DNA from: Apostichopus japonicus
Lineage: Eukaryota; Echinodermata; Holothuroidea; Aspidochirotida; Stichopodidae
Direction of reading: 5' to 3'
DNA length: 64,000 nucleotides
NCBI RefSeq assembly: GCF_037975245.1
Contig: NC_092577.1
Span: 139,501 to 203,500 of the forward strand
Of this stretch, positions 17,274 to 59,695 are shown in pieces (position 1 is the stretch's first letter; each line of letters begins with the position of its first letter). The notes beneath the pieces are model-generated. The model was not told the origin of the DNA. It saw nothing but the letters and a program-made list of their open reading frames with translations, and searched no databases. A program made the translations under genes and the position numbers.

Positions 17274-17448
17274 TCAATGCCTCTCCTCTTGTTTTTCTGG
17301 ATCCAACTTTATCAAGTCATCAATTCGCAGGATTGTTATTGCAGCTTCAGTTGCAAATTTTAATGATTTGATTTTAGAGATTCCTGGCTCAAAGACTCCA
17401 GCAGCTTTGTTGTCTCTGACAACTCCTTCCACCAAGTCTAATCCAACC
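17274..17448 (-). CDS. TCP1: TCP1 exon 12 (stop codon)
   Basis: The acceptor TCTTCAG precedes 17448. It encodes residues 486-543 ([37 protein letters not shown]) and ends in TGA at 17276-17274. The tail after the last conserved helix is short, which accounts for the 13-residue difference from human. Confidence 0.95.
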
Positions 17449-20400
17449 CTGAAGAAAGAAATATAAATGAGATATTAAATGATTGGCCTTCACCCATTGA
17501 GGCAGTAGGGTGCATGCTGATACTGCAAATCCCTGGTCCTCAAATTTGAAATTTATTTTGGGGGGTTTTAGTTGGTATCGTAACTAGAGAACTTACTGAA
17601 TCTTAAGACTAACATGTGCAGTAATTACTTGCACATTGAAGGTGAGAACATTTCATGTAACTACATATAGGTTTTTCAGTTTTGATCTAAAAAGAACTTT
17701 TGATGGCCATAGATTACAGTTCTGGTACTCATTAATGTGAAACTACACTAATTATGAATTTCATTGCAGCTTTACTTAGATTAAATCACCTTTTCCAGGT
17801 TTCAGACTTGAGATATACATACAAAGTATGAATATATGCAAGCTTTACTTTTAGAACTACCTCACTTACAACCTAACTCTAAGATTTTGACCTCTGGTAA
17901 CCTCAAATGACCCTTGATCTCTACACAAACACAACTGATTCACACCATTCATTGCTATCATCTCAGCACTTTAACATTACACTGTTTCTTGACTACCATA
18001 AAATTCAAGAGATTACAGCATCACTGGATTGTTTACCTTTTTAGTTTCCCATGATACTTTGCTGGTGCTCTATCAGCCTAGTTAAGTTATACTAGATAAA
18101 ACTCACCACTATAGAGCATACAACATTCAAGATTATAGGGATTATGTCTAGTTAAGTTATACTAGATCAAACTCACCATGATAGGGCATACAACAACCAG
18201 ATTACAAGGATTATGCCTAGATAAGTTATACTAGTGAAAACTCACCTATAATAGAGCATACAACAACCAGACTGTGCAGGGATTATGCCTAGATCAGTTG
18301 CACTAGTTATAACTCACCATAATAGGGCATACAACAACCAGATTACAGGGATTATGCCTAGATAAGTTATACTAGTTAAAACTCACCATGATAGGGCGTA
18401 CAACAACCAGACTGTGCAGGGATTATGCCTAGATAAGTTACACTAGTTATAACTCACCATGATAGGGCATACAACCAGATTACAGGGATTATGCCTAGAT
18501 AAGTTATACTAGATCAAACTCACCATGATAGGGCATACAACAACCAGATTACAGGGATTATGCCTAGATCAGTTATACTAGTTAAAACTCACCGTGATAG
18601 GGCATACAACAACCAGACTATATGCAGGGATTATGCCTAGATAAGTTACACTAGATCAAACTCACCATGATAGGGCATACAACAACCAGATTACAGGGAT
18701 TATGCCTAGATAAGTTACACTAGTTAAAACTCACCATGATAGGGCATACAACAACCAGATTACAGGGATTATGCCTAGATAAGTTATACTAGATTAAACT
18801 CATTATGATAGGGCATACAACAACCAGATTACAGGGATAATGCCTAGATAAGTTACACTAGTTAAAACTCACCATGATAGGGCATACAACAACCAGATTA
18901 CAGGGATTATGCCTAGATAAGTTACACTTACACTAGTTAAAACTCACCATGATAGGGCGTACAACAACCAGACTATGTGCAGGGATTATGCCTAGATAAG
19001 TTACACTAGTTATAACTCACCATAATAGGGCATACAACAACCAGATTACAGGGATTATGCCTAGATAAGTTATACTAGTTAAAACTCACCATGATAGGGC
19101 GTACAACAACCAGACTGTGCAGGGATTATGCCTAGATAAGTTACACTAGTTATAACTCACCATGATAGGGCATACAACCAGATTACAGGGATTATGCCTA
19201 GATAAGTTATACTAGATCAAACTCACCATGATAGGGCATACAACAACCAGATTACAGGGATTATGCCTAGATAAGTTACACTAGTTAAAACTCACCGTGA
19301 TAGGGCATACAACAACCAGACTATATGCAGGGATTATGCCTAGATAAGTTACACTAGTTAAAACTCACCATGATAGGGCATACAACAACCAGATTACAGG
19401 GATTATGCCTAGATAAGTTATACTAGATCAAACTCACCATGATAGGGCATACAACAACCAGACCATGTGCAGGGATTATGCCTAGATCAGTTATACTAGT
19501 TATAACTCACCATGATAGGGCATACAACAACCAGATTACAGGGATTATGCCTAGATAAGTTATACTAGATCAAACTCACCATGATAGGGCATACAACAAC
19601 CAGACTATGTGCAGGGATTATGCCTAGAAAAGTTATACTAGATCAAACTCACCATGATAGGGCATACAACAACCAGATTACAAGGATTATGCCTAGATCA
19701 GTTATACTAGATCAAACTCACCATGATAGGGCATACAACAACCAGACTATGTGCAGGGATTATGCCTAGAAAAGTTATACTAGATCAAACTCACCATGAT
19801 AGGGCATACAACAACCAGACTATGTGCAGGGATTATGCCTAGAAAAGTTATACTAGATCAAACTCACCATGATAGGGCATACAACAACCAGATTACAAGG
19901 ATTATGCCTAGATCAGTTATACTAGTTAAAACTCACCATGATAGCCTTAGGGCATACAACAACCAGACTATGTGCAGGGATTATGCCTAGATAAGTTACA
20001 CTAGTTAAACTCACCATGATAGGGCATACAACAACCAGACTATATGCAGGGATTATGCCTAGATAAGTTATACTAGATCAAACTCACCATGATAGGGCAT
20101 ACAACAACCAGATTACAGGGATTATGCCTAGATAAGTTATACTAGATCAAACTCACCATGATAGGGCATACAACAACCAGATTACAAGGATTATGCCTAG
20201 ATAAGTTACACTAGTGAAAACTCACCATGATAGGGCGTACAACAACCAGACTATGTGCAGGGATTATGCCTAGATCAGTTATACTAGTTATAACTCACCA
20301 TGATAGGGCATACAACAACCAGATTACAGGGATTATGCCTAGATAAGTTATACTAGATCAAACTCACTATGATAGGGCATACAACAACCAGATTACAGGG

Positions 20401-23400
20401 ATTATGCCTAGATAAGTTACACTAGTTAAAACTCACCATGATAGGGCGTACAACAACCAGACTATGTGCAGGGATTATGCCTAGATCAGTTACACTAGTT
20501 ATAACTCACCATGATAGGACATACAACAACCAGATTACAGGGGTTATGCCTAGATAAGTTACACTAGTTAAAACTCACCATGATAGGGCAAACAACAACC
20601 AGATTACAGGGATTATGCCTAGATAAGTTATACTAGTTAAAACTCACCACTTTAAGTCTGCCCTCTCTCCTTGTAACTGAGAAGTGTTATGGAATGCTCT
20701 GAGTTTAGCCACTAGATCAACAGAGTCTTTAGCTGCATTTACAGCCAGGGTCTTTGGGATGACCAGCAAAGAGTTGGCAAACTCTGCAATGGCCAGCTGC
20801 TCCCTGGAGCTCTGTGAGGAGAGGAAAACATATCACATGACACATGAACTTTAAGGAGAGTAAGAACACCAACTATACTTGACATCTGTAATTTAAAGTC
20901 ACTTGTTTCATCAACCATAGTCATATACGGTTTCATGCATGAGTAGCTACTACTACCAATAAGCACAGCCAGAATGAGCTGCAACTAGTAATTAAAAATA
21001 TAGGGGAAAAGAACCTGCTACTACCAAGATGTCTAAATAGTGACATGGTACTACCTGTGATGTATAAGAGTGACCTGCTACTACCAGTATTGTCTTAAGA
21101 GTGACCTGCTACTACCAGCATTGTTTTAAGAGTGACCTGCTACTACCAGCATTGTCTTAAGGGTGACCTGCTACTACTACTACCAGTGATGTCTTAAGGG
21201 TGACCTGCTACTACTAGTGATGTCTAAAGAGTGACCTGCTACTACCAGCATTGTCTTAAGAGTGACCTGCTACTACTACTACCAGTGATGTCTTAAGGGT
21301 GACCTGCTACTACTAGTGATGTCTAAAGAGTGACCTGCTACTACCAGTGATGTCTTGAGAGTGACCTGCTACTACTACTACCAGTGATGTCTTAAGGGTG
21401 ACCTGCTACTACTAGTGATGTCTTAAGGGTGATCAGCTACTACCATTATTGCCTTAAGAGTGACCTGCTACTACCAGCATTGTCTTGAGAGTGACCTGCT
21501 ACTACCAGCATTGTCTTAAGAGTGACCTGCTACTACCAGTATTGTCTTAAGAGTGACCTGCTACTACCAGCATTGTTTTAAGAGTGACCTGCTACTACTA
21601 GTGATGTCTAAAGAGTGACCTGCTACTACCAGTGATGTCTTGAGAGTGACCTGCTACTACTACTACCAGTGATGTCTTAAGGGTGACCTGCTACTACTAG
21701 TGATGTCTTAAGGGTGATCAGCTACTACCATTATTGCCTTAAGAGTGACCTGCTACTACCAGCATTGTCTTGAGAGTGACCTGCTACTACCAGCATTGTC
21801 TTGAGAGTGACCTGCTACTACCAGCATTGTCTTCAGGGTGACCTGCTACTACTAGTGATGTCTTAAGGGTGATCTGCTACTACCATTATTGTCTTAAGAG
21901 TGACCTGCTACTACCAGCATTGTCTTGAGAGTGACCTGCTACTACCAGCATTGTCTTGAGAGTGACCTGCTACTACCAGCATTGTCTTGAGAGTGACCTG
22001 CTACTACCAGCATTGTCTTTAGAGTGACCTGCTACTACCAGTGATGTCTTAAGGGTGACCTGCTACTACCATTATTGCCTTAAGAGTGACCTGCTACTAC
22101 TAGTGATGTCTTTAGAGTGACCTGCTACTACCAGTGATGTCTTAAGAGTGACCTGCTACTACCATTGATGTATTAAGAATGAGCTGCTACTACCAGTGAT
22201 GTATAAAGAGTGAGCTGCTACTTACCAGTGATGTAGCAAGGTTCTCAAGGTAGATAGAAAGGGCAGCTTCAACAGCTCCCCCTCCTGTTACTACTGTCTT
22301 ACTCTCAAGAACTCGCTTCACAACACACAGTGAATCATGAATAGACCTTTCCATCTCGTCACACTGTGTATCATTTGCTCCCCTCAGGATGATAGAGGCA
22401 GCCTTCTTTACTTTTGGTCTAGAAAAAAAGTTAAATCCAAAAGGTGTTAACAGAGGATTAAATGTATTCAAATATTTTAGTTATATAGCTAGCCTATCAA
22501 TTATTTCTTGCAAAATGTATGTTAACCCCTATTGTTAATGTATGTTAACCTTTATTTTAATGTATGTTAACCCCTATTGTTAATGTATGTTAACCTTTAT
22601 TTTAATGTATGTTAACCCCTATTGTTAATGTATGTTAACCTTTATTTTAATGTTGTTAACCTTTATTTTAATGTATGTTAATCCCTATTGTTAATGTATG
22701 TTAACCCCTATTGTTAATGTATGTTAACCTTTATTTTAATGTATGTTAATCCCTATTGTTAATGTATGTTAATCCCTATTGTTAATGTATGTTAACCCCT
22801 ATTGTTAATGTATGTTAACCTTTATTTTAATGTATGTTAACCCCTATTGTTAATGTATGTTAACCTTTATTTTAATGTATGTTAACCCCTATTGTTAATG
22901 TATGTTAACCCCTATTGTTAATGTATGTTAACCTTTATTTTAATGTATGTTAACCCCTATTGTTAATGTATGTTAACCTTTATTTTAATGTATGTTAATC
23001 CCTATTGTTAATGTATGTTAACCCCTATTGTTAATGTATGTTAACCTTTCTTTTAATGTATGTTAATCCCTATTGTTAATGTATGTTAACCCCTATTGTT
23101 AATGTATGTTAACCTTTATTTTAATGTATGTTAATCCCTATTGTTAATGTATGTTAACCCCTATTGTTAATGTATGTTTACCTTTATTTTAATGTATGTT
23201 AATCCCTATTGTTAATGTATGTTAACCCCTATTGTTAATGTATGTTTACCTTTATTTTAATGTATGTTAATCCCTATTGTTAATGTATGTTAACCCCTAT
23301 TGTTAATGTATGTTAACCTTTATTTTAATGTATGTTAATCCCTATTGTTAATGTATGTTAACCCCTATTGTTAATGTATGTTTACCTTTATTTTAATGTA

Positions 23401-26400
23401 TGTTAATCCCTATTGTTAATGTATGTTAATCCATATTGATAATGTATGGTAATCCCTATTGTTAATGCATATCTCTGAATGTACACTTCTAACAAATGCA
23501 GTGCTAAATACACTTGTCAAACTCACCATTGATGAATTATATTTGGTTCTGGCCTAAAATCATCATTTTCATTCAAGAACCAATCTTGAGGATATTTTTA
23601 TACAAAGAACTTGAAGAATAGTCATAAACATGTGATATTCCTTAATCAGTGTCTAATTGGCTTCTAGCTAGTAATATTACATTAGCCAAGCTACCTTTAC
23701 TACTTGGCTTGGTGAGTAATGTTACAGCAGCCAAGCTATCTTTACTACTTGGCTTAGGCTAGTAATGTTACAGTAGCCAAGCTACCTTTAGTACTTGGCT
23801 TCGGCTTGTAATGTTACAGTGGCCAAGCTACCTTTACTACTTGGCTTAGGCTAGTAATCTTACAGTAGCCAAGCAACATTTACTACTTGGCTTAGGCTAG
23901 TAATGTTACAGTAGCCAAGCTACCTTTACTACTTGGCTTGGTGAGTAATGTTACACTAGCCAAGCTATCTTTACTACTTGGCTTAGGCTAGTAATGTTAC
24001 AGTAGCCAAGCTACCTTTAGTACTTGGCTTCGGCTTGTAATGTTACAGTGGCCAAGCTCCCTTTACTACTTGGCTTAGGCTAGTAATGTGGTTACAGTAG
24101 TCAACCTCATTTAAGTTGATTTAACAGTCCAGGTAACTTTAACTGTGTGCTACTAATATCCACTTAAGCCAGTCCCTCTTATACCTCGGTGCTTCTCACC
24201 CTTTCACAAGAATAAGTTCATCATCAGATATCCGTTCCTGGACAACCTCCTCTGCATGTCCTATCATACTTGGGTCAAAACTCTCTTCTCCTTCCAAGTT
24301 TGCCAGAGTAACCAGAAGTTGGCCTGCAGAAAAAGACAAAGTTTAAGCAATTACACACTACCATTGCAATTTAAGTTGAATAAAGACAATTTCACTCACA
24401 GTTGTCATTTTGAATGCATTAGCAAACTTAAATATGTGATACAACAGTAGCAAGATTTCAGGGCGATTCATGCAGTTTCAAAACCTTTTAAACCCTGTAG
24501 ACATCTTGTATCAGGAATGCATGGTCAAAAATTCCCTACAACACTGATGTTATCATTTGTTCCATACTGTGCATACAGCATGCATGGTCAGATGTTCCCT
24601 ACAACACTGATGTCATCATTTGTTCCGCACTGCATCCATCATGCATGATTAAGACCTTCCCTTCAACACTGATATTAACATTTGTTCCATACTGTGCATA
24701 TGGCATGCATGGGTTAGACATCCCTTCAACACTGATGTTATCATTTGTTCCACACTGTGCATATGGCATGCATGGGTTAGACATCCCTACAACACTAATG
24801 TTATCATTTGTTCCACACTGTGCATATGGCATGCATGGTTCAGACCTTCCCTACAACACTGATGTCATCATTTGTTCCACACTGTGCATCCATCATGCAT
24901 GGGTCAGACCTTCCCTACAACACTGATATTAACATTTGTTCCATACTGTGCATATGGCATGCATGGGTTAGACATCCCTTCAACACTGATGTTATCATTT
25001 GTTCCACACTGTGCATATGGCATGCATGGGTTAGACATCCCTACAACACTAATGTTATCATTTGTTCCACACTGTGCATATGGCATGCATGGTTCAGACC
25101 TTCCCTACAACACTGATGTCATCATTTGTTCCACACTGTGCATCCATCATGCATGGGTCAGACCTTCCCTACAACACTGATATTAACATTTGTTCCATAC
25201 TGTGCATATGGCATGCATGGGTTAGACATCCCTACAACACTAATGTTATCATTTGTTCCACACTGTGCATATGGCATGCATGGGTTAGACATCCCTACAA
25301 CACTAATGTTATCATTTGTTCCACACTGTGCATATGGCATGCATGGTTCAGACCTTCCCTACAACACTAATGTCATCATTTGTTCCACACTGTGCATCCA
25401 TCATGCATGGGTCAGACCTTCCCTACAACACTGATATTAACATTTGTTCCATACTGTGCATATGGCATGCATGGGTTAGACATCCCTACAACACTAATGT
25501 TATCATTTGTTCCACACTGTGCATATGGCATGCATGGGTTAGACATCCCTACAACACTGATGTTATCATTTGTTCCACACTGTGCATATGGCATGCATGG
25601 GTTAGACATCCCGCAACACTGATGTTATCATTTGTTCCACACTGTGCATATGGCATGCATTCATTAAAACAGTGATGTTATCTTTGTTTCACTATTCTTA
25701 CCTCCAGTTGCCTTGGCTATTCTCTTTAGGTCAACCTTTTTGCACCTCCTGACAGCCATAGCACCAGCTTCCACAAAGTATTTTAGGCAGAGATCATCAA
25801 TACCTCCAGTGGATAGAACCACATTTGTCCCTGCTGATAAGATCTTCTCAATCCTTTCTTTAGTAATATCAGCCTCCCTGGATACCAAACAAAGGCAGAT
25901 TTAGCTTTAAGTAGAAATATTAAACTGTGCTTAACTATCTAACAGTTAATTAAATTGCACTACTGAATGAATCAATCATTCTCCCAATACTTTCAGTGGA
26001 CAAAACTATATGCACAGCAAAGCTTCAGCACAGCTCTTTAACTTTCATTTATCAAAATATTCAATACTCCACAACCCCACTTCCCCACTCTGATGATGTT
26101 CCCTCCTCCTCTGATAATGTTCCCCTCCCTCACTGATGCCCCCCTCCCCAATTGATGATGTTCCCCTCTCCCACTGATGATGTTCCCCTCTCCCACTGAT
26201 GTTCCCTTCCTCCCACTGATGTTGCCCTTTCCCACTGATGATGTTTCCCCTCCCCCACTGATAATGCTCTATTGATAATCTTGGACTGCTTATTAACCCT
26301 TCTACCCTTCCTGTTGTCTCCACCCCCTATCCCCCCCCTCCCATTGACCATTCCTCACATACCAATCCTCCTCCTCCGGATCATTCTGTGTTTTGACCAT

Positions 26401-29400
26401 CCAGCTACTTGCAAGTTGTCTCCCTACTAACTCCCCACACCCCCACTTCAGTCCCTGATGCTGACCCCTCCTTCCTATGTGTAGTTCCTTACCTCTGTCT
26501 AATCGCATCTAGTTTCTCCGGATTGTCAACAATGACATGAACTCCCAGGTGCATCTTAGCTTTCTGAAGGCTAAAATCTAAGAATGCAATTTTAGCGCCC
26601 GTAATCTTCTTCAACATTGCTGCAAGAAAGACAATAAAAATAATAACAGATTTTCACCTCCATTGTAGATTATATATAGCTACTAATACTACAACTGAGC
26701 AACAAATTAGAACAAAAGAGATGCAACAAAACATTAATATTTATGCACTCCTTTAGGATTAATAAAACATTTACATACTTTAGTAAGTCTAAAACACTTC
26801 CATAGGCTGCCACTTACACACACATGTGCTACCAGCCTGCCACACACATCCACAGGCTACCCCAAACATGTGCTGCCAGCCTGCCTCACTCAACAGGCTG
26901 CCACGAACATACACATGTGCTGCCAGCCTACCTCACACATCCACAGGCTGCCACTAACACGTGTACACATGTGCTACCAGCCTGCCACACACATCCACAG
27001 GCTACCCTGTACATGTGCTGCCAGCCTGTCTCACTCAACAGGCTGCAAGGAACATACACATGGGTTGCCAGCCTACCTCACACATCCACAGGCTGCCACT
27101 AACACGTGTACACATGTGCTACCAGCCTGCCACACACATCCTCAGGCTATCCCGTACATGTGTTGCCAGCCTGCCTCACTCAACAGGCTGCCAGGAACAT
27201 ACACATGGGTTGCCAGCCTACCTCACACATCCACAGGCTGCCACTAACACGTGTACACATGTGCTATCAGCCTGCCACACACATCCACAGGCTACCCCGT
27301 ACATATTCTGCCAGCCTACCTCACACATCCACAGGCTGCCACTTACACACATGTGCTACCAGCCTGCCACACACATCCTCAGGCTATCCCGTACATGTGC
27401 TGCTAGCCTGCCTCACTCAACAGACTGCCAGGAACATACACATGGGTTGCCAGCCTACCTCACACATCCACAGGCTGCCACTAACACACACATGTGCTAC
27501 CAGCCTGCCACACACATCCACAGGCTACCCCGTACATGTGCTGCCAGTCTGTCTCACTCAACAGGCTGCCACGAACATACACATGGGTTGCCAGCCTGCC
27601 ACACACAACCACAGGCTACCCCGTACATGTGTTGCCAGCCTGCCTCACTCAACAGGCTGCCACGAACATACACATGGGTTGCCAGCCTACCTCACACATC
27701 CACAGGCTGCCACGAACATACACATGGGTTGCCAGCCTGCCACACACATCCACAGGCTGCCACGATTATATACATGTGCTGCCAGCCTACCTCACACATC
27801 CACAGGCTGCCACTAACACGTGTACACATGTGCTATCAGCCTGCCACATACATCCACAGGCTGCCCTGTAAATGTGCTGCCAGTCTGCCTCACTCAACAG
27901 GTTGCCACAAACATACACATTTACATAAGGAAAGGGACTCACCTTGAGAGGCAACTGTGCAGTTAAGAGCATAGCCATCTACCAAGATAGTATCCTTGGC
28001 ACTCTTGCCGTGAGCTTTAAGAAGATTTATGGCCTTGATTGGGCATTTGACAACTCCTTTGTTGTCTGTCATCTTCACAGCATTGGCAGCATCAACCACC
28101 ATGTTAGAGAAAAAATCAGCATCTCTGCAAAATAAGTCAGAAATGGAAAACATGCATTGCTTCCAAGACATAATAAGTGCAATTTTGAGATAGCATGTTC
28201 ACAACGTTTATACATCTTGAACTCTGCTGACCTCAAATGACCTTCAACTTCCACTAATCACAATCAGTTCCATCTACTAAATACGAGGCTCAAACAGACC
28301 AAGTAGACAATCCATCCATGTTGAGATATCATGTTTACAAAGTTTGCAGACTTTAGAGCACTCAAATCAAAGCGGCTTGCACTCAACACAGGGCATCCAT
28401 AAAATAATGTAGGTATCTTGCACTCAATTCAGGGCATCCATACAATACTGTAGGTGTCTTGCACTCAATTCAGGGCATCCATACAACACTGTAGGGGTGT
28501 TGCACTCAACACAGGGAATCCATACAATAATGTAGATATCTTGCACTCAATTCAGGGCATCCATACAATACTGTAGGTGTCTTGCACTAAATTCAGGGCA
28601 TCCATACAACACTGTAGGAGTGTTGCACTCAACACAGGGCATCCATACAATAATGCAGGTATCTTGCACTCAATGCAGGGCATCCATACAATACTGTAGG
28701 TATATTGGACTCAACACAGGGCATCCATACAATACTGTAGGTGTCTTGCACTCAATTCAGGGCATCCATACAATACTGTAGGTATATTGGACTCAACACA
28801 GGGCATCCATAGAACCACTGTAGGTATCTTGCACTCAATACAAGGCATCCATACAATACTTATTAGGTTGATCCAATTCCAATTTGCCTTTTAACAAATA
28901 TCCTTGTTCATCTGTTGCACTACACTCTAAAAAGAGGCTTCTTATACTCCATGTACACCATCCATATTCCTCTCACAATGCCTCTAATAATTTTAAGTAT
29001 GAAAATCAGACCATGATAAATAAATTTATATAAAGGAAGTTTCTACTGCCTATTTAGATCTTATGACTTCTACCTTTTGCTGATTTTGTTATCAAGCCTA
29101 CAGAAAATATCAGCTATTCTGTGCTGTTAAAAATGCTACTGCTGCACACACATATGTATACAAACCAATGCAACAATAACGATGTTCAACCACATATTGT
29201 AGAATTGTATACTCAGGTTACATCATCGCATGAAAGAGTATGCAATGAAAACAATTCCTGCAGCCTGAGTGAATTACTTAGAAGTTGTGAGAACAGAATC
29301 TTGCTAATTTGGCTTGATTGATGATTTCGAACATTGATGATGCTAAACTTGATGTTTAACTTGAGACGCCTTCAGGGTTATTCTGCTCAGGCTTTAGCAA

Positions 29401-32400
29401 CTTGATACGGCAGAGGACTGATGAAACTTGCTTTGTTGAAACAACTCAGTTATGTGAAGCGTTGCAATGTGGCTATAATGTGTTCAAGCTATTGCATATG
29501 TGGCTGTAATGGCTGTTGCAAGGTGGCTGTACTGTGGAGTTGTTGCTATGTGTTTGTAATGTGAAGCTGTTGCAAGGTGGCTGTACTGTGGAGTTGTTGC
29601 TATGTGTTTGTAATGTGAAGCTGTTGCAAGGTGGCTGTACTGTGGAGTTGTTGCTATGTGTTTGTAATGTGAAGCTGTTGCAAGGTGGCTGTATGGTGGA
29701 GTTGTTGCTATGTGTTTGTTATACCAAATTGATGCAAGGTGACTCTATTGTCAAGCATTTTCTGCATTTGATCAAATCACATAAGAGTATTATGAGGTAT
29801 AGAGTGGTTCTTGTATCTCACCTGCCAATGAGCTTGGATGACATGGAGGTCTTTGCAGCATTCACAACACTGTCTCTTCCCAGCTCATCAACACTGATGG
29901 TAAGATGTTCATTAATATACCTACAGGCTTCTCTGGAAAGACAAAAACAAACAATTAAACCATTTAGTATCTTGAATCAGGATATAAAAGTCTTTATTTC
30001 TATAATAAAGGTTCACTCCAAACAGTAATGTTTGCACCGACACTGAAATAACAAACATACAAGTAATAAAGGTTGCAGAACCTTGTGCTACACATATTTG
30101 AGGTTGGTTTAATATGAAGTGAGAATAAATGAGGCATACAAAAACTTTCTACTGGTGTCAAGGTTAAATATGTTATAAAAAGACAACTGGTTAAAATATT
30201 TGATTGCATGTTTATACAAAAAATGATAACTGAAAGACTTTTCACTTTCACAGAGTGTTGTAGCTGTCCAGTCTGCTGCATACTTACTTCACTGCACACG
30301 TAAGGAGACTAAAGTCCTCCTTAGATCTGTAGTAAGCTAAGATTTCCATTGACTAAGTTTCTCCTTAAATCTAACTGAAACTTGATTTATGGTCTGCATA
30401 CGTAAGGAGACTAAAGTCCTCCTTAGATCTGTAGTAAGCAAAGATTTCCATTGACTAAGTTTCTCCTTAAATCTGACTGAAACTTGATTTATGGTCTGAA
30501 CACGTAAGGAGACTAAAGTCCTCCTTAGATCTGTAGGAAGCTAAGATTTCCATTGACTAAGTTTCTCCTTAAATCTAACTGAAACTTGATTTATGGTCTG
30601 CATACGTAAGGAGCTAAAGTCCTCCTTAGATCTGTAGTAAGCTAAGATTTCCATTGACTAAGTTTCTCCTTAAATCTGACTGAAACTTGATTTATGCTCT
30701 GCAAACATAAGGAGACTAAAGTCCTCATTAGATCTGTAGTAAGCTAAGATTTCCATTGACTAAGTTTCTCCTTAAATCTGGCTGAAACTTGATTTATGCT
30801 CTGCAAACATAAGGAGACTAAAGTCCTCCTTAGATCTGTAGTAAGCTAAGATTTCCATTGACTAAGTTTCTCCTTAAATCTGACTGAAACTTGATTTATG
30901 CTCTGCAAACATAAGGAGACTAAAGTCCTCCTTAGACCCGTAGTAAGCTAAGATTTCCATTGACTAAGTTTCTCCTTAAATCTGACTGAAACTTGATTTA
31001 TGGTCTGAACACGTAAGAAGACTAAAGTCCTCCTTAGATTTGTAGGAAGCAAAGATTTCCATTGACTAAGTTTCTCCTTAAATCTAACTGAAACTTGATA
31101 TATGCTCTGCAAACATAAGGAGACTAAAGTCCTCCTTAGATCTGTAGAAAGCTAAGATTTCCATTGACTAAGTTTCTCCTTAAATCTGACTGAAACTTGA
31201 TTTATGCTCTGCAAACATAAGGAGACTAAAGTCCTCCTTAGATCTGTAGTAAGCTAAGATTTCCATTGACTAAGTATCTCCTTAAATCTGACTGAAACTT
31301 GATTTATGCTCTGCAAACATAAGGAGACTAAAGTCTCCTTAGATCTGTAGTAAGCTAAGATTTCCATTGACTAAGTTTCTCCTTAAATCTGGCAGAAACT
31401 TGATTTATGCTCTGCAAACATAAGGAGACTAAAGTCCTCCTTAGATCTGTAGTAAGCTAAGATTTCTAAGTTTCTCCTTAAATCTGACTGAAACTTGATT
31501 TATGGTCTGCATACGTAAGGAGCTAAGGTCCTCCTTAGATCTGTAGTAAGCTAAGATTTCCATTGACTAAGTTTCTCCTTAAATCTGACTGAAACTTGAT
31601 TTATGGTCTGCACACGTAAGGAGACTAAAGTCCTCCTTAGATCTGTAGTAAGCTAAGATTTCCATTGACTAAGTTTCTCCTTAAATCTGGCTGAAACTTG
31701 ATTTATGGTCTGCATACATAAGAAGCTTAAGTCCTCCTTAGATCTGTAGTAAGCTAAGATTTCCATTGACTAAGTTTCTCCTTAAATCTGACTGAAACTT
31801 GATTTATGCTCTGCAAACATAAGGAGACTAAAGTCCTCCTTAGATCTGTAGTAAGCTAAGATTTCTAAGTTTCTCCTTAAATCTGACTGAAACTTGATTT
31901 ATGGTCTGCATACGTAAGGAGACTAAAGTCCTCCTTAGATCTGTAGTAAGCTAAGATTTCCATTGACTAAGTTTCTCCTTAAATCTGGCTGAAACTTGAT
32001 TTATGGTCTGCATACATAAGAAGCTTAAGTCCTCCTTAGATCTGTAGTAAGCTAAGATTTCCATTGACTAAGTTTCTCCTTAAATCTGACTGAAACTTGA
32101 TTTATGGTCTGCACACATAAGGAGCTAAGGTCCTCCTTAGATCTGTAGTAAGCTAAGATTTCCATTGACTAAATTTCTCCTTAAATCTGACTGAAACTTG
32201 ATTTATGGTCTGCACACGTAAGGAGACTAAAGTCCTCCTTAGATCTGTAGTAAGCTAAGATTTCCATTGACTAAGTTTCTCCTTAAATCTGGCAGAAACT
32301 TGATTTATGCTCTGCAAACATAAGGAGACTAAAGTCCTCCTTAGATCTGTAGTAAGCTAATATTTCTAAGTTTCTCCTTAAATCTGACTGAAACTTGATT

Positions 32401-43080: not shown

Positions 43081-43104
43081 TTCAGTAATTTGCGTACCGT
43101 TCTG

Positions 43105-43114
43105 TTTTTATATA
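43105..43114 (-). promoter_or_regulatory. TCP1: TATA-like sequence upstream of TCP1
   Basis: TATATAAAAA on the minus strand, 25-34 bases before the TCP1 ATG. If used as a TATA box it would give almost no 5' UTR, so it may be coincidental. Confidence 0.25.
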
Positions 43115-44541: not shown

Positions 44542-44549
44542 TCCTCCAT

Positions 44550-45499: not shown

Positions 45500-45786
45500 T
45501 TAACGCAATTTTTTAGTGTGTAAAACATATTGTCATTCGTTACGTGTAACGCAATTGTCATTCGTTTTAGTAACACCCCGGAAACGGCCCTTCCCGGGTG
45601 TTCATTCTGGTTACCTGGCCTCTTGCTAACTTGAGACACCCCAATTTTTATGTAGAAAAAGGGCACATTTTTAACATGAGGAAAAGTTCCACCGCCCTTG
45701 CTCACCACTGTCCTTCGTTGTCATTCGCGAATGATATTTAACCCTGTACAAAGTCAATTGTCATTCGGTCATTCGTTTTAGTTTGT
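45500..45786. mobile_element. Fragment related to the MITE interior
   Basis: Contains CCGGAAACGGCCCTTCCCGG, like the segment following the core in 45946-46893, and several copies of TGTCATTCGTT. No clean termini found, so it is probably a truncated copy. Confidence 0.4.
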
Positions 45787-45945
45787 CCCCAAAATCCCCA
45801 CGACGAAAGAATTGGCCGAATTGATGCAACTAATCTTGACCAGCAATAATCTGGTATTTGGCAACAAACATTACCCCCAAATTCATGGCACCGCAATGGG
45901 TACCAAAATGGCACCGTCTTTTGCCAACATGATAACATCTTTATG

Positions 45946-46893: not shown

Positions 46894-47270
46894 TCTTTAT
46901 GGGAAACCTCGAGAAAGAATTTATACTTGAAACCACACACATGGTTACGTTTCATTGACGATATCTTCATGATATGGACCCATGATGAGGCAAATCTAAA
47001 ACTCTTCATTGATGACATAAACTCGTTTCATCACACTATCAAATTTACTGCAGATTTTTCTGGACATGGCGTTCACTTATAATTCCTGGACACCACTGTG
47101 ACCCTACGAAATGGTTCACTCAATACAGACTTGTTCAAATAACCCACGAACAAGCACAACTACCTTTTACCAAGCAGTTGCCACACGTCACTGTACCAGA
47201 AATATTCCGTGCAGTCATGGCGTTGCGCATTCGACGCATTTGCTCCTCTGAAGTCGATTTTGATTCCCGC

Positions 47271-48175
47271 CATGGGCGTCAACAGGTGGGGGACGGGGGG
47301 GACATGTCCCCCCCACTTTCAAAAGTGGAGGGGATATCATATCATTTGTCCCACCCACTTTTCAGAGTAGTTATTAAAAAAAATCACATGCATATGCGCG
47401 ATTTTCTATTTAAGGTCAAGAAATCTGGACTCCTGGGCCCCTGCTATCTATCACTTGCACCGCCATTTATCTCCCATTCTCCCAATATCCTAAATCTGCC
47501 CATTTAATTCGTTGGGGGGGGGGGAGACCATTCGAAAGTGTATTGAATCTTGCACACATGTTGTTTGTATGGGTTCCAAGGGATTAGGTAAGCCATACAG
47601 GTAGATGGTGATGAGTTACTATGTTCATATCACTACCTCCAGTCCCTAGCTTGGACTGGACGGACGAATAGGGGTGTAGGGGTTAAGTAATTAAGGCTAC
47701 ATGTATTCGCGGGATATGGTAGATCTTTATTGTTGAGTGCCGGCTAGGCGCTACACACGCTCTGCGCGCGGTGCCTTTTTCTGATTATTATTATTAAAGT
47801 ACCTGGGCACATAACAACTGACGTCTCGCACCTACATGCATGTATTATATATACCACTCCACTCATCCCGGAGGTGACGGCGCCACTTTTTCAATATTTC
47901 GTTTGAGATGGACGCTGTGTAATTCGTCTCCCTTGGTGTCAGAACGGCATCTTTCTACCAGTACTTTCTGTCGGGATTTAGTTTTGTGAGACAAAATTTC
48001 TCCTCACAGATCTGGTTCTGATGTAACTAAAAACGACTCAGGAAGGCCGTCTCCTGCGATCTATGGGGTCTTATGTACCCAAAATTTTCTGGTACGCTAC
48101 GCGCCAACCAATGGTGACGCTCCGCTTAGATAGTATAGTGTCCCCCTCACTTTCTGAAACCTGCTGACGCCCATG
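47271..48175. mobile_element. hAT-like element, 905 bp, inserted in the Penelope-like element
   Basis: The ends CATGGGCGTCAACAGG and CCTGCTGACGCCCATG (15 of 16 inverted matches) are flanked by the perfect 8-bp duplication ATTCCCGC (47263-47270, 48176-48183). The shared core appears on the minus strand near 48090-48140. It is longer than its relatives; the middle (about 47540-47820) may be a further insertion ending in ATTATTATTATTA. Confidence 0.9.
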
Positions 48176-48400
48176 ATTCCCGCACCAAAGAACTGTCACA
48201 ACCCCTCCTAAACAGACAGTATTTTCGGGGTACTATTAAAATGCCATCAAAAAGGCCAAAAGCAAACCCCGTACCGAAACATTGACATACAAAACTCGTC
48301 AAACCAGTTCCAAATGGGTACCATTGGTTACTGAATTCCACCTTGGTCTCCCACCACTGGCTAATATCATGTGGATCATTTGTATTATTGTATAATAATG

Positions 48401-52703: not shown

Positions 52704-55700
52704 GTAAGCTCAACCCTCTGGTCACCCTAAAGGTTGCTAAACTTTACTATCCTTTCATATACTGTTGTTATTCTTGCTACCTCATTAATTTGTTTTCTAG
52801 TAATAGATGTCTAATATGTATGACTGATTGAACTATGGGTAATGGTAACTGTTACACTGTTATATACAGTATTAACCCTTGTCTTGAGTAAAATTGGTGG
52901 CACTAGCACCTTTGTAAATGTATATTTAAACATAAAATGCTGATATCGCCATTGCAACAATTTTGCACATGAAAAGGTTTAAATAACCTTTGACCTTCCG
53001 CGAGTCAGACACACTGACAACTACGATCTACAGCTTTACTGTGCTCTACTCCAGGCCCTAAACAATGTAGCATTCGTCCTATACGTGTAATAATGTGTAC
53101 AATTGTGTGCAAATGCTTGGCATACTTGCAGTATACTAGAGCTATACAGTATATGCTTTGCTGGAAGAAGAATGGTTTTCTCAGTCCAAACCAAATCTAG
53201 GCTACCACTTCAACAATATGGCAGCTGCACCATCAGTAATTGAGTTCTCAAATGATGGACTTGAAGTTACAATTGACCCTGTAGTATGTAGTTGTCGGTC
53301 AAACTGTTCCACAAAAAGTGGTAGAGGGGCATGTCCATGCAGAATAGATCAAAGGAATTGCAGACGTGGAACGAGTCGTCACCTGAGTAGAAATCTTTCT
53401 GAATCAGTGAGTATTTGAACTAAATATGTTACCCTGCAGGCTGCACATTTTTGCAGGAAACTCAACAATGCAGTAGCCACGTAGTACGTGTAGATCTAAT
53501 CACCATAGCAGGTACTTGGAGTGAGTAAATAGGGACAGCAATGAACTGAGAGAACCTTATGAATATCGTGATAAAGTTATTCAGGTAAATCAAAAGTCAC
53601 AGTACCCAGCAGTATATCTAGTCACCTTAGCAGGTACTTGGAGTGAGTAAATAGGGGACAGCAATGAACTGAGAGAACCTTATGAATATCGTGATGAAGT
53701 TATTCAGGTAAATCAAAAGTCACAGTACCCAGCAGTATATCTAGTCACCTTAGCAGGTACTTGGAGTGAGTAAATAGGGGACAGCAATGAACTGAGAGAA
53801 CCTTATGAATATCGTGATGAAGTTATTCAGGTAAATCAAAAGTCACAGTACCCAGCAGTATATCTAGTCACCTTAGCAGGTACTTGGAGTGAGTAAATAG
53901 GGGACAGCAATGAACTGAGAGAACCTATGAATATCGTGATGAAGTTATTCAGGTAAATCAAAAGTCACAGTACCCAGCAGTATATCTAGTCACCTTAGCA
54001 GGTACTTGGAGTGAGTAAATAGGGGACAGCAATGAACTGAGAGAACCTTATGAATATCGTGATGAAGTTATTCAGGTAAATCAAAAGTCACAGTACCCAG
54101 CAGTATATCTAGTCACCTTAGCAGGTACTTGGAGTGAGTAAATAGGGGACAGCAATGAACTGAGAGAACCTTATGAATATCGTGATGAAGTTATTCAGGT
54201 AAATCAAAAGTCACAGTACCCAGCAGTATATCTAGTCACCTTAGCAGGTACTTGGAGTGAGTAAATAGGGGACAGCAATGAACTGAGAGAACCTTATGAA
54301 TATCGTGATGAAGTTATTCAGGTAAATCAAAAGTCACAGTACCCAGCAGTATATCTAGTCACCATAGCAGGTACTTGGAGTGAGTAAATAGGGGACAGCA
54401 ATGAACTGAGAGAACCTTATGAATATCGTGATGAAGTTATTCAGGTAAATCAAAAGTCACAGTACCCAGCAGTATATCTAGTCACCATAGCAGGTACTTG
54501 GAGTGAGTAAATAGGGGACAGCAATGAGCTGAGAGAACCTTATGAATATTGTGATGAAGTTATTCAGGTTAATCAAAAGTCACAGTACCCAGCAGTATAT
54601 CTAGTCACCATAGCAGGTACTTGGAGTGAGTAAATAGGAGACAGCAATGAACTGAGAGAACCTTATGAATATCGTGATAAAGTTATTCAGGTAAATCAAA
54701 AGTCACAGTACCCAGCAGTATATCTAGTCACCATAGCAGGTACTTGGAGTGAGTAAATAGGTGACAGCAATGAACTGAGAGAACCTTATGAAAATCATGA
54801 TGAAGTTATTCAGGTAAATCAAAAGTCACAGTACCCAGCAGTGTATCTTATCACCATAGCAGGTACTTGGAGTGAGTAAATAGGGGACAGCAATGAACTG
54901 AGAGAACCTTATGAATATTGTGATGAAGTTATTCAGGTAAATCAAAAGTCACAGTACCCAGCAGTGTATCTAATCACCATAGCAGGTACTTGGAGTGAGT
55001 AAATAGGGGACAGCAATGAACTGAGAGAACCTTATGAATATCGTGATGAAGTTATTCTGGTTATTATCAAAAGTCACAGTACCCAGCAGTATATCTAGTC
55101 ACCATAGCAGGTACTTGGAGTGAGTAAATAGGGGACAGCAATGAACTGAGAGAACCTTATGAATATTGTGATGAAGTGATTAGGGTTAGGGTGCTAACCC
55201 TAACCCTAGTTCTTGCGCTAGTGTTTCTTTCAATGTATATGAATTCTTTTTCTTTGCAAAACAGGGCGATAAACCCCTCATAGTAAAAGCATCCATTGCA
55301 GAAATGGACATACATGATTTCCAGCGTCTTGCCAAAAAGAGCGGAGGAAGAATTCGATGTCCTAATCCAAATTGTATTAGGTCATTTACGACCCGACAAG
55401 GTCTGCTATATCATATCAATAGATGCGGTAAAGAACTTGAGTTGAACTATTCATGTGAACATTGTAAGAAGAGGTATGGATCCTGGCCTGGACTGTCACA
55501 TCACCTGAAACACCATCACAAACAGAAATCTACAGCTGCTGCTACTGAAGAGAGTGATATTCTCATCCCAGGCCAGAGACGACGGGCTGCAGCAAGGTAG
55601 GAATAATATCTACTCATAGTTTTATGCTACACTTAGGGTTAGGGGTAAGTCACATGTCAAACACCATCACAAACAGAATACTACTGCTGCTACTGAAGAG

Positions 55701-58700
55701 AGTGATATACCCATCCCAGGCCAGAGACGACGGGCTGCAGCAAGGTAGGAATAATATCTACTCATAGTTTTATGCTACACTTAGGGTTAGGGGTAAGTCA
55801 CATGTCAAACACCATCACAAACAGAATAATACTGCTGCTACTGAAGAGAGTGATATACCCATCCCAGGCCAGAGACGACGGGCTGCAGCAAGGTAGGAAT
55901 AATATCTACTCATAGTTTTATGCTACACTTACTGTAGGGTTAAGGGTATGTCACATTACCTCAACACACAATCAGAAAGAGAATGTATGTATATTATAGC
56001 TGCTACACAGGAGAAAAACATTCCCATCCCTTTCCAGAGACGATGGGCTGCACCAAGGTAAGAATGTATCTATTCATAGTTTGGTGCTACGTTGAGGGTT
56101 AGGGGTAAGTCACATGTCAAACACCATCCCAAACAGAATACTACTGCTGCTCCTAAAACATTAGTTGCTGCTAGTAAGTTTAAGTGCAACTACAGTAGAG
56201 ACAACAAAGCCTTCATAAGGGAGGAGTAATGAGATATTTATCTTTGTCATTGTCAGGGCAATTGAGAAGCTGCATGAAATTGCTGATGAGTTTAAAGTCC
56301 AGGGAGAATCTGCAGTGACAGACGAGAGTGAATTCATGGATGAAATGGCATCAGCTAAGAGTGTATTGGTTTGTATCATATTGATTGAGTATAGAATGTT
56401 GAATTATGTCAAATTGATATTTAGAGCACAAAAGGTTGTTGGCTTGTTGCCATGGTGATTGAAGTTGGTGAAGACGGAGGTCATATGAGGTGGACATGTG
56501 GATCCAACCTTGGCCTGAGTAAGGCTTGAAAAAGTGTGGAAAGAATCACTATGCATATTGACTTGGTTTCTGGCTTCTATAAGCACCAGAATGACAACAA
56601 TAATATGTAAGGAATGATTTTGGCTAATATTGTGAAATTCATGTTGAAGTTGATTTAATGACATCTAGCTTAGCAATGTATTAGCACATGGAGTACCAGC
56701 ACTTACCTTACATATTAATGGTTGAAAGGTTTGCACTGAAAGAAGACAAAGACATCCATTAGTACACATGGAGTACCAGCACTTACCTTACATATTTATG
56801 GTTGAAAGGTTTGCACTGAAAGAAGACAAAGAGATCCATTAGTACACATGGAGTACCAGCACTTACCTTACATATTTATGGTTGAAAGGTTTGCACTGAA
56901 AGAAGACAAAGAGATCCATTAGTAAACATGGAGTACCAGCACTTACCTTACATATTTCTGGTTGAAAGGTTTGCACTGAAAGAAGACAAAGAGATCCATT
57001 AGTAAACATGGAGTACCAGCACTTACCTTACATATTTATGGTTGAAAGGTTTGCACTGAAAGAAGACAAAGAGATCCATTAGTACACATGGAGTACCAGC
57101 ACTTACCTTACATATTTATGGTTGAAAGGTTTGCACTGAAAGAAGACAAAGAGATCCATTAGTAAACAGGAGTACCAGCACTTACCTTACATATTTATGG
57201 TTGAAAGGTTTGCACTGAAAGAAGACAAAGAGATCCATTAGTACACATGGAGTACCAGCACTTACCTTACATATTTATGGTTGAAAGGTTTGCACTGAAA
57301 GAAGACAAAGAGATCCATTAGTAAACATGGAGTACCAGCACTTACCTTACATATTTATGGTTGAAAGGTTTGCACTGAGACAAGACAAAGAGATCCATTA
57401 GTACACATGGAGTACCAGCACTTACCTTACATATTTATGGTTGAAAGGTTTGCACTGAAAGAAGACAAAGAGATCCATTAGTACACATGGAGTACCAGCA
57501 CTTACCTTACATATTTATGGTTGAAAGGTTTGCACTGAGACAAGACAAAGAGATCCATTAGTACACATGGAGTACCAGCACTTACCTTACATATTTATGG
57601 TTGAAAGGTTTGCACTGAAAGAAGACAAAGAGATCCATTAGTAAACATTTCTTTACTCTTTTGATTCTTTCTGCTGTTTGATCTCAAACAGAAACTATTC
57701 CAAGCTCCAAGCAGCTATAAACCTAGCCCAGAGGATGTTCTATCATGGTCATCTGAGCTGGAAGAATCTGGATATGTCTCCTGTCAATTCTGTAAAAAGA
57801 TTCTTTATGGACTCAAGTTCATCAAGCTTCATACCATCAGCAGTTGTAAAGAGGCAAGCATGACTGAAGCAAGGGCTTAATCTAAAACTGCAAACATTGC
57901 AGCACAATTTCCTTAAGATGTTTGGTTTAATAATATATGAATATTTTAAAAAGGTGTGGTCAAATCTGTGGATGTTTCTTTATTCCTTGCCAAAGGCAAA
58001 ATAAATCCCTGCCATGGTGATGGCATGTGTCTGTGTGTGTGATGCCATGGTGATGGCATGTGTCTGTGTGTGATGCCTTGGTGATGACATGTGTCTGTGT
58101 GTGATGCCATGGTGATGGCATGTGTCTGTGTGTGATGCCATGGTGATGGCATGTGTCTGTGTGTGATGCCTTGGTGATGGCATGTGTCTGTGTGTGATGC
58201 CATGGTGATGGCATGTGTCTGTGTGTGATGCCTTGGTGATGGCATGTGTCTGTGTGTGATGCCATGGTGATGGCATGTGTCTGTGTGTGATGCCATGGTG
58301 ATGGCATGTGTCTGTGTGTGATGCCATGGTGATGGCATGTGTCTGTGTGTGATGACATGGTGATGGCATGTGTCTGTGTGTGATGCCATGGTGATGGCAT
58401 GTGTCTGTGTGTGATGCCATGGCTTATAAACATAATAACTAGAAAACTGTATGATGGATGAACATATTTGGCATGTAGATGAACCATATTGAGTACAAAA
58501 CACCCTATTCAATTGATGAAGGTCAAAGTTTACACCAACTGTTATTAAAGTAACCATGATGAACTTTAAACATGGTGTAAACCACCTTACTGAGTACAAG
58601 ATTTCCAGTACTAATTCACACAGTATGGTATATGGATCCACTTTATAAAAGTGGGTAAGGAATTACTACACCTTTTTGCATTCTGGTTATCAATATCAGC

Positions 58701-59695
58701 TAAGTGACCTAACCCTAACCCCAGCAAACCCAGTAACAAGCTTATGACATGGACAATCCCCTTACTATTCTCTACACAAGTATGTGCGTGGTTGAAGGAT
58801 TTGTTAGTGACAAACACAAGTATGTGTTTGGTTGAAGGATTTGTTAGTGACAAACACCAGTTTTTGCATGGTTGAAGGAAGTCTTAGTGACATACACAAG
58901 TTTTTGCGTGGTTGAAGGATGTGTTAGTGACATACACAAGTATGTGCGTGGTTGAAGGACGTGTTAGTGACACACACAAGTATTGACGTGGTTGAAGGAT
59001 GTGTTAGTGACAAACACCAGTATGCGTGGTTGTAGGATGTGTTAGTGACATACACAAGTATGGATGTGGTTGAAGGATGTGTTAGTGACAAACACAAGTA
59101 TGTGCATGGTTGTAGGATGTGTTAGTGACACACACAAGTATGTGCATGGTTGAAGGATGTGTTAGTGACATACACAAGTATGTGCATGGTTGAAGCATGT
59201 GTTAGTGACACACACAAGTATGTGTGTGGTTAAAGGATGTTAGAGTTGTCCTGTTTCAACAACTATTCTTTGCTTGAAGAAAGTGGAATTTTTGAATACT
59301 GACCTATTGCCTACACTACACAAGGTAGCACTGAACTGTTAGCAGATAATTTGGTGCATTTCAAAGGTGTTAAAGGCTGAATCAATCACAATATCAAGCA
59401 GTCTCTTTGAAAATGAAGATAAAACATGTGTGCTTGCACTGATGATTTACCTGTCTGGCTAGCCATCAATCTCCTGCAAATCCTAGAAGCCATCAAACCC
59501 CTAGCCCTAATCTTAACACTTAGTGAGGATGTATAGTGGAAGTAGCTATGTATAGTGAAGGTGTAAGAGCCCACCTGAAATAGTATTGTTTTAATCCCAC
59601 AGAGACCCAGTGGCTTGTATAGTTGCTTGCAGTGTGACACTGAATGTAAGACTAAGAAACAGATGCTGAGGCACTTAAAACAGGCACATGAAGAG
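51950..59695 (+). CDS. ZNF512B: AT-hook and zinc-finger protein, ZNF512/ZNF512B-like (5 exons, 3' end beyond window)
   Basis: Join of 51963-52703, 55265-55596, 56257-56368, 57692-57853 and 59603-59695: 480 residues, still open at the window's right side. All junctions are in phase. The N-terminus is basic and low-complexity, with three GRGRP-type AT-hooks (residues about 57-79) and a fourth, RGRPRK, at about 123-128, suggesting AT-rich DNA binding in the nucleus. Paired fingers follow: C279/C284/H297/C301 then C311/C314/H327/H331, and C426/C429/H442/C447 then C457/C460/H473/H478. The alternation of a C2HC-like and a C2H2 finger, and linkers such as LHEIADE and SYKPSPEDVLSW, match the ZNF512/ZNF512B family. 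The AT-hook N-terminus is not something I recall from the vertebrate proteins. The symbol is a family-level assignment. Confidence 0.8.
52141..52198 (+). repeat. ZNF512B: Coding 18-bp tandem repeat making AT-hooks
   Basis: Three copies of AGGCCAAGAGGAAGGGGC, each adding one RPRGRG step. It is in frame, so changes in copy number would change the number of AT-hooks without breaking the protein. Confidence 0.9.
53150..53407 (+). CDS. Cysteine-rich CXC-like reading frame in the ZNF512-like intron
   Basis: An open frame with VVCSCRSNCSTKSGRGACPC followed by RIDQRNC, resembling small CXC or pre-SET-type zinc-binding motifs. It is preceded by CTATACAG, an acceptor, at 53149 and ends at a good donor, GTGAGT, at 53408. 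The 5' junction is out of phase with the upstream ZNF exon (reading through would give a stop), while the 3' end is phase 0, matching the next ZNF exon at 55265. It could be an alternative first exon starting at ATG 53218, or a remnant of a mobile element. Confidence 0.4.
53490..55178 (+). repeat. 123-bp array in the ZNF512-like intron
   Basis: About 14 copies of a 123-bp unit (GTCACAGTACCCAGCAGTAT, CAGGTACTTGGAGTGAGTAA, AACTGAGAGAACCTTATGAA). On the coding strand each unit holds donor-like CAG|GTAAAT and GGA|GTGAGTAAA. It runs to about 85 bases from the next exon. Confidence 0.95.
55180..55209. repeat. Inverted pair of telomere-like repeats
   Basis: TTAGGGTTAGGG, a two-base spacer, then CTAACCCTAACCCTAG: two telomeric hexamers facing their own complement, a potential hairpin, at the end of the 123-bp array. 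Confidence 0.9.
55265..55596 (+). CDS. ZNF512B: ZNF512-like exon with first zinc-finger pair
   Basis: The acceptor AAAACAG ends at 55264; phase 0 start at GGC. It encodes residues 248-357 with IRCPNPNC...YHINRC and YSCEHC...HHLKHHH; donor GTAGGA at 55597. Its 3' end is duplicated downstream. Confidence 0.9.
55535..56160 (+). repeat. ZNF512B: 148-bp tandem duplication of an exon end and its donor
   Basis: The exon's last part from CACCATCACAAACAG through GGGCTGCAGCAAG|GTAGGA plus the following intron is repeated at 55670-55817 and 55818-55965, with a diverged copy ending near 56060 and a stub near 56120-56160. Landmark GACGACGGG at 55578, 55726 and 55874 (period 148). Each copy keeps a donor-like site. 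The copied 68-base exon piece is not a multiple of three, so inclusion would shift the frame. Confidence 0.93.
56257..56368 (+). CDS. ZNF512B: ZNF512-like linker exon
   Basis: Acceptor TTGTCAG; one base completes AGG (Arg), then 37 codons (AIEKLHEIADEF, acidic stretch) to donor GTTTGT at 56369. LHEIADE parallels the LQEIAEDE region after the middle fingers in ZNF512B. Confidence 0.82.
56369..56679 (+). other. ZNF512B: Unique part of a ZNF512-like intron
   Basis: Non-repetitive sequence after the linker exon, up to the 80-bp array. I see no exon or element end in it. Confidence 0.5.
56680..57648. repeat. 80-bp array in the ZNF512-like intron
   Basis: About 12 very similar copies of CATGGAGTACCAGCACTTAC, CTTACATATTTATGGTTGAA and GAAGACAAAGAGATCCATTA. 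On the minus strand each has AAG|GTAAGTGC, a donor-like site antisense to the gene. Confidence 0.96.
57692..57853 (+). CDS. ZNF512B: ZNF512-like exon with third finger, GC donor
   Basis: Acceptor CTCAAACAG. It encodes 54 residues, including SYKPSPEDVLSW and GYVSCQFC...LHTISSC. The best end is GAG|GCAAGC, a GC-type donor, which joins in phase to RPSGLYSC in the next exon. That gives the finger-to-finger spacing seen in the family. Confidence 0.8.
58010..58430. repeat. 31-bp array in the ZNF512-like intron
   Basis: About 13 copies of GATGCCATGGTGATGGCATG TGTCTGTGTGT (31 bp). The minus strand has no stop in any of three frames, giving three overlapping artificial long frames. The unit includes the hairpin GCCATGGTGATGGC. 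Confidence 0.95.
58765..59240. repeat. 40-bp array in the ZNF512-like intron
   Basis: About twelve copies of ACACAAGTATGTGCATGGTT then GAAGGATGTGTTAGTGAC. Confidence 0.93.
59603..59695 (+). CDS. ZNF512B: ZNF512-like exon with fourth finger
   Basis: Acceptor AATCCCACAG, 31 codons with YSCLQCDTECKTKKQMLRHL followed by KQAHEE, donor GTGAGT at 59696. It is a canonical C2H2 finger with a phase 0 end, so the gene continues to the right. Confidence 0.87.

Follow-up and report, generated by a model that had tools for sequence, protein, structure and literature searches.

Exon-end minisatellites in a gene sample of the sea cucumber Apostichopus japonicus span splice donors more often than acceptors

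Introduction

Tandem repeats that lie across exon-intron boundaries have been described in amphioxus, where they were named 'mirages', in Adh3, the globins BflGb6 and BflGb9, troponin C and PGBD5, among other genes. The two reports describe reverse transcription polymerase chain reaction (RT-PCR) results that suggest normal splicing, as well as instability of array length (PMC3087553, PMC3902484). Arrays of similar anatomy are reported here from the sea cucumber Apostichopus japonicus, beginning with a subtelomeric stretch of 64,000 nucleotides (nt) (C17:139501-203500), the whole of which is called the window and which carries the CCT1 (TCP-1 alpha) chaperonin gene. Arrays were taken from Tandem Repeats Finder (TRF) at a period of at least 10, and cover 46.9% of the window. 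They are intronic minisatellites, and those that span an exon end are, by anatomy, mirage minisatellites.

The A. japonicus arrays resemble the amphioxus mirages in several respects. Their repeat units span the exon-intron boundary (12 donor-spanning arrays among 212 donors), and many but not all copies keep the AG/GT signal, the GT being retained in 43-100% of the copies of each donor-spanning array by rough copy counts. Also, either exon boundary can be hit, with one acceptor-spanning array in A. japonicus. The two systems differ in that the A. japonicus sample is donor-sided (12 vs 1), whereas the globin paper (PMC3087553) shows both boundaries, and in that a rate was measured in A. japonicus (9 of 197 donors sampled outside the window). 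Normal splicing and somatic instability were reported in amphioxus; for A. japonicus, undisturbed splicing is suggested by the coding frame. A literature search on splice-donor, exon-boundary and mirage repeats in sea cucumbers and echinoderms, which did not extend to subscription papers, gave no echinoderm report among those listed. The amphioxus phenomenon appears to extend to an echinoderm, and the present counts suggest that exon-end mirages are common in A. japonicus rather than anecdotal. What is added is this rate, the strong donor side of the spanning arrays and a mixed result for arrays that lie near a junction.

Two other systems are related. Intron gain through tandem duplication of AG/GT proto-splice sites is an idea of Rogers, as cited in the globin paper (PMC3087553). 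There too a segment with a splice signal is duplicated; however, the donor copied in A. japonicus already existed, and the CCT1 protein is readable without an extra intron. The minisatellite of the human IFI6 (6-16) gene likewise repeats a splice donor, and its extra donors are reportedly used in transcripts, whereas in A. japonicus such use would break the protein.

Arrays spanning splice junctions

Three sets of genes were sampled outside the window, consisting of eight chaperonin genes (45 donors, 44 acceptors), a blind set of exons (117 and 115) and a kinesin set (35 and 38). Arrays spanned 9 of the 197 donors and 1 of the 197 acceptors (Fisher p = 0.020). With the window included, in which 3 of 15 donors and none of 15 acceptors were spanned, the counts rose to 12/212 and 1/212 respectively (p = 0.003). 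By set, donors led acceptors 7 to 1 in the blind set (p = 0.066) and 2 to 0 in the chaperonin genes. A second test, independent of TRF, looked within 300 bases for a further occurrence of the 30 bases that cross a junction. It found one at 9/117 donors vs 1/115 acceptors of the blind set (p = 0.019); the counts were 1/45 vs 0/44 for the chaperonins, 0/35 vs 0/38 for the kinesins and 1/15 vs 0/15 for the window. Donor bias is therefore supported for arrays that span a junction.

The spanning arrays are clustered, with three in one myosin gene, two in the CCT gene on C21 and two in CCT1. Counted per gene, the excess outside the window falls to 6 vs 1 (p = 0.125), since the myosin gene alone supplies three cases and a CCT gene two; with the window included it is 8 vs 1 (p = 0.039). 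The only acceptor-spanning array in the sample (L049, C19:15108383-15110620) lies in a myosin gene and looks young, since it has 3 copies of 124 base pairs (bp) at a 98% match. The seven donor-spanning arrays of the blind set match at 81-95%, and reach up to about 16 copies within the stretch examined.

Three donors of what is apparently one myosin gene (L013, L057 and L051, C4:23.98-24.00 Mb) each carry a spanning array of their own, with unrelated units. This gene, megabases from a chromosome end, appears to be a gene-level hotspot.

The blind set was drawn from 127 Pfam exon hits (myosin head, 54 of 70 hits; kinases, 65 of 134; Aldedh, 8 of 13). The kinesin set, 44 of 126 hits, was added later with flanks of ±190 bp, so short that long units may escape them. 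Pfam exon hits were picked from hit tables before the DNA was seen, chiefly for a short open frame, and near-duplicate family members and some other Pfam hits were excluded. Splice sites scoring below 1 were removed (9/127 donors and 11/127 acceptors in the blind set, 9/44 and 6/44 in the kinesin set), as was L070, a duplicate of L069. The chaperonin genes were 8 of 10 loci outside the window, the two that lie in long open frames being excluded. By eye, they comprise seven CCT paralogues, of which the C21 gene was named 'CCT8', and one HSP60-like gene (C18). The two long-frame matches to the chaperonin family (C8:490794-491699 and C3:29768027-29769685; 380 and 613 amino acids) are perhaps a retrocopy and an unusual HSP60-like gene.

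Repeat units and decoy donors

The units of the blind-set arrays join an exon end to an intron start. That of L069 is made of the last 64 exonic bases and GTGAGC, and that of L060 of 12 exonic bases, GTAAGT and 13 more, while in L100, L013, L126, L057 and L051 some 6-89 bases of the exon are joined to the first part of the intron. The donor is thus copied with the unit, and the copies behind the first donor are called decoys here. The six intronic bases of the donor are unaltered in the consensus of 10 of the 12 donor-spanning arrays. They are altered in L126 and in the 31-bp array of CCT1, which has lost one A of GTAAGT; the 69/70-bp array of CCT1 retains GTGAGT. Erosion of the decoys, which would be a sign of selection against them, was not seen in the 12 donor-spanning arrays. 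The copy counts used for the single copies exceed those of TRF for some arrays (12 vs 7.1, 10 vs 3.9 and 47 vs about 36).

Use of the best-matching next decoy would lead to a frameshift, a stop or both in all 12 arrays. In CCT1 the first donor is required, because the reading frame demands it. Eight of the 12 unit lengths are not multiples of three, as would be expected by chance.

A kinase gene is present twice at a distance of 3.3 Mb (L069 at C11:6.33 Mb and L070 at C11:9.61 Mb). Both genes share a donor-spanning 70-bp array whose internal variants differ, a pair that could date array turnover. At a further locus (L029, C13:10603436-10604703), 34 bp of the donor junction are repeated perfectly some 220 bp downstream. 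TRF does not report this second copy as spanning, and it is possibly a newborn mirage.

Arrays near junctions and array coverage

Arrays that lie near a junction without spanning it gave a different result. Within 0-150 nt on the intron side, with only the nearest array per site counted, there were 24 at donors and 17 at acceptors in all sets (p = 0.32), with 12 vs 11 for arrays of at least 150 bp and 8 vs 8 for those of at least 300 bp. A donor bias is not supported for nearby arrays overall. The sets disagree, with 5/117 donors vs 10/115 acceptors in the blind set, 7/45 vs 2/44 in the chaperonin set and 5/35 vs 0/38 in the kinesin set. This donor bias in the chaperonin and kinesin sets, against the opposite leaning of the larger blind set, is unexplained. 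The first-pass annotation, made from the window alone, had proposed a genome-wide comparison of array distances to donors and acceptors; run on the present sample, that comparison bears out a donor bias for spanning arrays but not for nearby ones.

The eight chaperonin genes gave the impression of arrays crowded to within 200 nt of the donors (10/21 vs 2/19); this was set aside in view of the blind and overall counts within 150 nt, though the kinesin set leans the same way.

Coverage was followed across the junctions of the blind and chaperonin sets. On the donor side, arrays covered 0 of 162 sites at -120 in the exon, 9/162 at the junction and 10-18/162 from +60 to +285. At acceptors, 1 of 159 junctions lay under an array; 90-105 nt away the figure was 5/159, and between 120 and 285 nt it was 6-11/159. 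The 5.6% covered at the donor junction is no higher than the 6-11% of the deeper intron, and acceptors have a depleted zone of about 100 nt. Arrays thus reach over the donor at about the background level and are kept off the acceptor, the site of the branch point and pyrimidine tract. Because donor coverage is near background while the acceptor zone is depleted, this looks like unequal constraint at the two sites.

Probable tolerance at donors and alternative explanations

The donor side of the spanning arrays is probably a product of selection, which would filter arrays according to the junction they copy: duplication of an exon end and its donor would be harmless while the first donor is used, and duplication of an acceptor would not. 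Small tandem duplications would occur all along genes, at a higher rate towards chromosome ends. A copy of the exon end, donor and intron start would keep the original, first donor in place. With that donor in use, the extra copies would be intronic and unseen by selection, and could be kept and lengthened through slippage or unequal exchange. A copy of the branch point, tract, acceptor and exon start would place complete acceptors upstream of the real one and would be purged, as would a duplication inside an exon, which alters the protein. The expected outcome would be donor-side edges inside the exon, sizeable arrays whose edges keep at least about 40 nt away from the acceptor, and now and then an array that runs beyond a stop codon. 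Exon duplication seems to survive past a stop codon too, as in the 52-bp array of the window, the exon there being presumably terminal.

In essential chaperonin genes the real donor is followed at once by further copies of the exon end and its donor, from a few to dozens in number, which have to be passed over if the protein is to form. For the question of how the spliceosome settles on the first among many equal 5' splice sites, they are a natural experiment. Also, the asymmetry between donors and acceptors gives a measurable handle on the differing tolerance of the two splice sites.

Several observations count against tolerance as the explanation. No array spans any of the 35 donors or 38 acceptors of the kinesin set, where about 2 donor cases would be expected (chance of none, 0.14). 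Variation in the decoy donors is slightly below that of the remaining unit (mean rank 0.30 where 0.5 ± 0.08 is expected, a rough measure). In laboratory tests it is often the intron-proximal one of two equal donors that is preferred, and against this background harmless decoys are a surprise. Nearby arrays in the chaperonin and kinesin sets together are found at 12/80 donors and 2/82 acceptors (p = 0.005), the two sets having been pooled after the fact. Arrays of at least 300 bp outside the window start nine times in the last 100 exonic nt and three times in the first 150 intronic nt (p = 0.015), where an even spread would give 40:60 and the size cut was chosen after the data were seen; with the window included the starts number 12 vs 8 (p = 0.057). 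In the blind set all seven spanning arrays are large, and the five whose start lies up to 150 nt downstream are small. A seemingly strong surplus of large arrays at the junction was also considered, and it becomes weaker once truncation at the end of the region and the small arrays are taken into account.

Several of these points would suit donor-linked seeding or growth, in which events at the 5' splice site during transcription or splicing (polymerase pausing, R-loops, nicks or U1-bound RNA) raise the rate of duplication or expansion. This alternative is doubtful. In its fuller form, equally tentative, a lesion coupled to transcription or splicing would duplicate the segment around a used donor in the germline, copies would keep their donors because donor-bearing ones amplify, and chromosome ends would only raise the rate; about 1 donor in 20 would then carry the scar. 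The donor-sided and large spanning arrays, the starts of large arrays, the pooled nearby counts and the unaltered donor bases in 10 of 12 consensuses are all consistent with it. So are the second junction copy at L029 and the several arrays per gene in the myosin, C21 CCT and CCT1 genes, as germline transcription might give. Seeding would, however, lead one to expect a donor bias among nearby arrays, which is absent overall and in the largest set, and junction coverage above the intron level. The unspanned kinesin donors, the acceptor-spanning L049 and the 52-bp array, which appears to span a stop codon instead, also speak against it. Seeding or donor-driven growth is thus given a minor share of belief, because the sets disagree on nearby arrays while large-array starts favour the exon end.

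A genome-wide pattern search is nominally unfavourable to seeding as well. The sequence AGGTAAGT occurring three times at 20-50 nt spacing gave 253 matches (209 + 44), as against 411 (290 + 121) for the backward control pattern. This test neither supports nor refutes seeding, because matches rather than arrays were counted and the control catches TGAA/GGAT-like microsatellites, which were noted by eye among the first 100 matches listed. For the window, a mechanism tied to transcription or splicing had been suggested, by way of R-loops or nick-prone donors; such a lesion may play a part but is not required. A whole-genome version of the count can separate mutational seeding from selection.

It is improbable that the pattern reflects chance and ascertainment, an array-rich subtelomere having been read, donor cases noticed and acceptor cases overlooked. 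The window is as dense in arrays as other subtelomeric samples (47% vs 48%), its acceptor-side neighbours had been left out of the initial finding, the kinesin set is without a spanning array at either end, and the per-gene count outside the window gives only p = 0.125. The Fisher tests outside the window and in all, the recurrence test of the blind set made without TRF, and units and decoys that are plain on reading stand against it.

Retention of the arrays for a function, whether as splicing insurance, U1 platforms or raw material for new introns, is very improbable, since the intact decoys of most arrays and the intron gain from mirages proposed for amphioxus globins (PMC3087553) are set against a best-matching next decoy whose use would disrupt the protein in all 12 arrays, a donor altered in the consensus of L126 and the 31-bp array, and unit lengths that are multiples of three no more often than chance gives.

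Array density near chromosome ends

Ten 1-kb samples, each about 170 kb from one of ten other chromosome ends, consisted of array to 47.6%, with four nearly full and three with none. Elsewhere the share was 6.5% in the blind set (161.6 kb around exons) and 5.8% in the eight chaperonin genes (82.3 kb). The high array density of the window looks like a property of chromosome ends, the interior being represented in this comparison by exon surroundings and chaperonin genes and not by intergenic DNA. General subtelomeric minisatellites are a further likeness, with a density about eightfold higher 170 kb from the ends than in the exon and chaperonin sets; unlike them, however, A. japonicus mirages also occur megabases from the ends (C4, C11 and C21), and the subtelomere is therefore not required for mirages.

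Genes and arrays of the window

The features of the window are listed in Table 1. The CCT1 reading is secure, because the product of the 11 exons read, which may be preceded by an N-terminal one, gives a gapless alignment of 520 residues with PDB chain 6qb8_a (T-complex protein 1 alpha) that crosses all 10 junctions. On the plus strand, a gene whose exons include weak C2H2 fingers occupies about 51.9-61.8 kb of the window. Its name is uncertain, because the Pfam C2H2 matches are weak and occur in only two of the six exon frames tried. A minus-strand open frame with its stop at 7326-7328 has a weak GRIP match (E 0.0014, below the Pfam cut-off).

Table 1. Coding regions and tandem arrays of the window, numbered from its first letter
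Feature	Position	Strand	Remarks
CCT1 (TCP-1 alpha) gene	17274..40284	-	11 coding exons read; gapless alignment to PDB 6qb8_a
CCT1 exons 1-6 of 11 read	40199-40284, 39269-39397, 37729-37826, 29822-29932, 27943-28124, 26493-26619	-	
CCT1 exons 7-11 of 11 read	25702-25877, 24200-24323, 22226-22418, 20648-20811, 17277-17448	-	stop 17274-17276
52-bp array, 74 copies	3534..7380	-	covers last 17 codons and stop (7326-7328) of GRIP-like frame
69/70-bp array, ~36 copies	18076..20649	-	spans CCT1 exon 10 donor; begins 2 nt inside exon
31-bp array, ~38 copies	21013..22234	-	spans CCT1 exon 9 donor; begins 9 nt inside exon
45/68-bp array	22514..23467	-	ends 95 nt ahead of a CCT1 acceptor; not among the arrays of the initial finding
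46-bp array	23667..24089	-	110 nt past a CCT1 donor
63-bp array	24533..25660	-	CCT1 intron; 41 nt past donor, 209 nt ahead of acceptor
~50/145-bp array (taken as the '48-bp' array)	26794..27920	-	CCT1 intron; 77 nt past donor, 174 nt ahead of acceptor
54-bp array	29512..29719	-	102 nt past a CCT1 donor
123-bp array	53490..55181	+	fills intron; ~83 nt from donor, ~85 nt from acceptor
148-bp array, ~4 copies	55508..56151	+	spans donor of C2H2-like exon 55265-55596; ~90 exonic nt per unit
80-bp array	56685..57648	+	ends 43 nt ahead of acceptor, C2H2-like gene
72-bp array	59750..61804	+	~55 nt past donor of C2H2-like exon ending 59695

The arrays named in the first-pass annotation were all found by TRF. 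Four of them had been said to overlap an exon end or donor. The 31-, 70- and 148-bp arrays do span a 5' splice site, but the 52-bp array covers the end of the GRIP-like frame, and most likely lies over a terminal exon and the 3' end of a gene rather than over a 5' splice site. The 63-, ~50-, 54-, 46- and 72-bp arrays start close to donors, as had been stated. Array edges in TRF depend on the strand, the ~50-bp array starting 77 nt after the donor on the gene strand and 22 nt after it on the plus strand. Arrays of the window lie near acceptors too, at distances of 43, 85, 95, 103 and 106 nt. On the intron side, an array lies no more than 150 nt away from 7 of 15 donors and from 5 of 15 acceptors.

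A unit of about 102 bp occurs in two blocks (30292-33031 and 36842-37157) of one CCT1 intron, with about 3.8 kb of mostly non-array DNA between them, as if one array had been split by an insertion. The stretch at 42000-51400, between the two array-rich genes, is free of TRF arrays, and some frames within it look, on impression, like remnants of transposons. At the edge of the 123-bp array (55175-55215) there are telomere-like words, TTAGGG/CCCTAA, in inverted order, and TTAGGG-like words occur inside most of the 148-bp units, for example near 55635.

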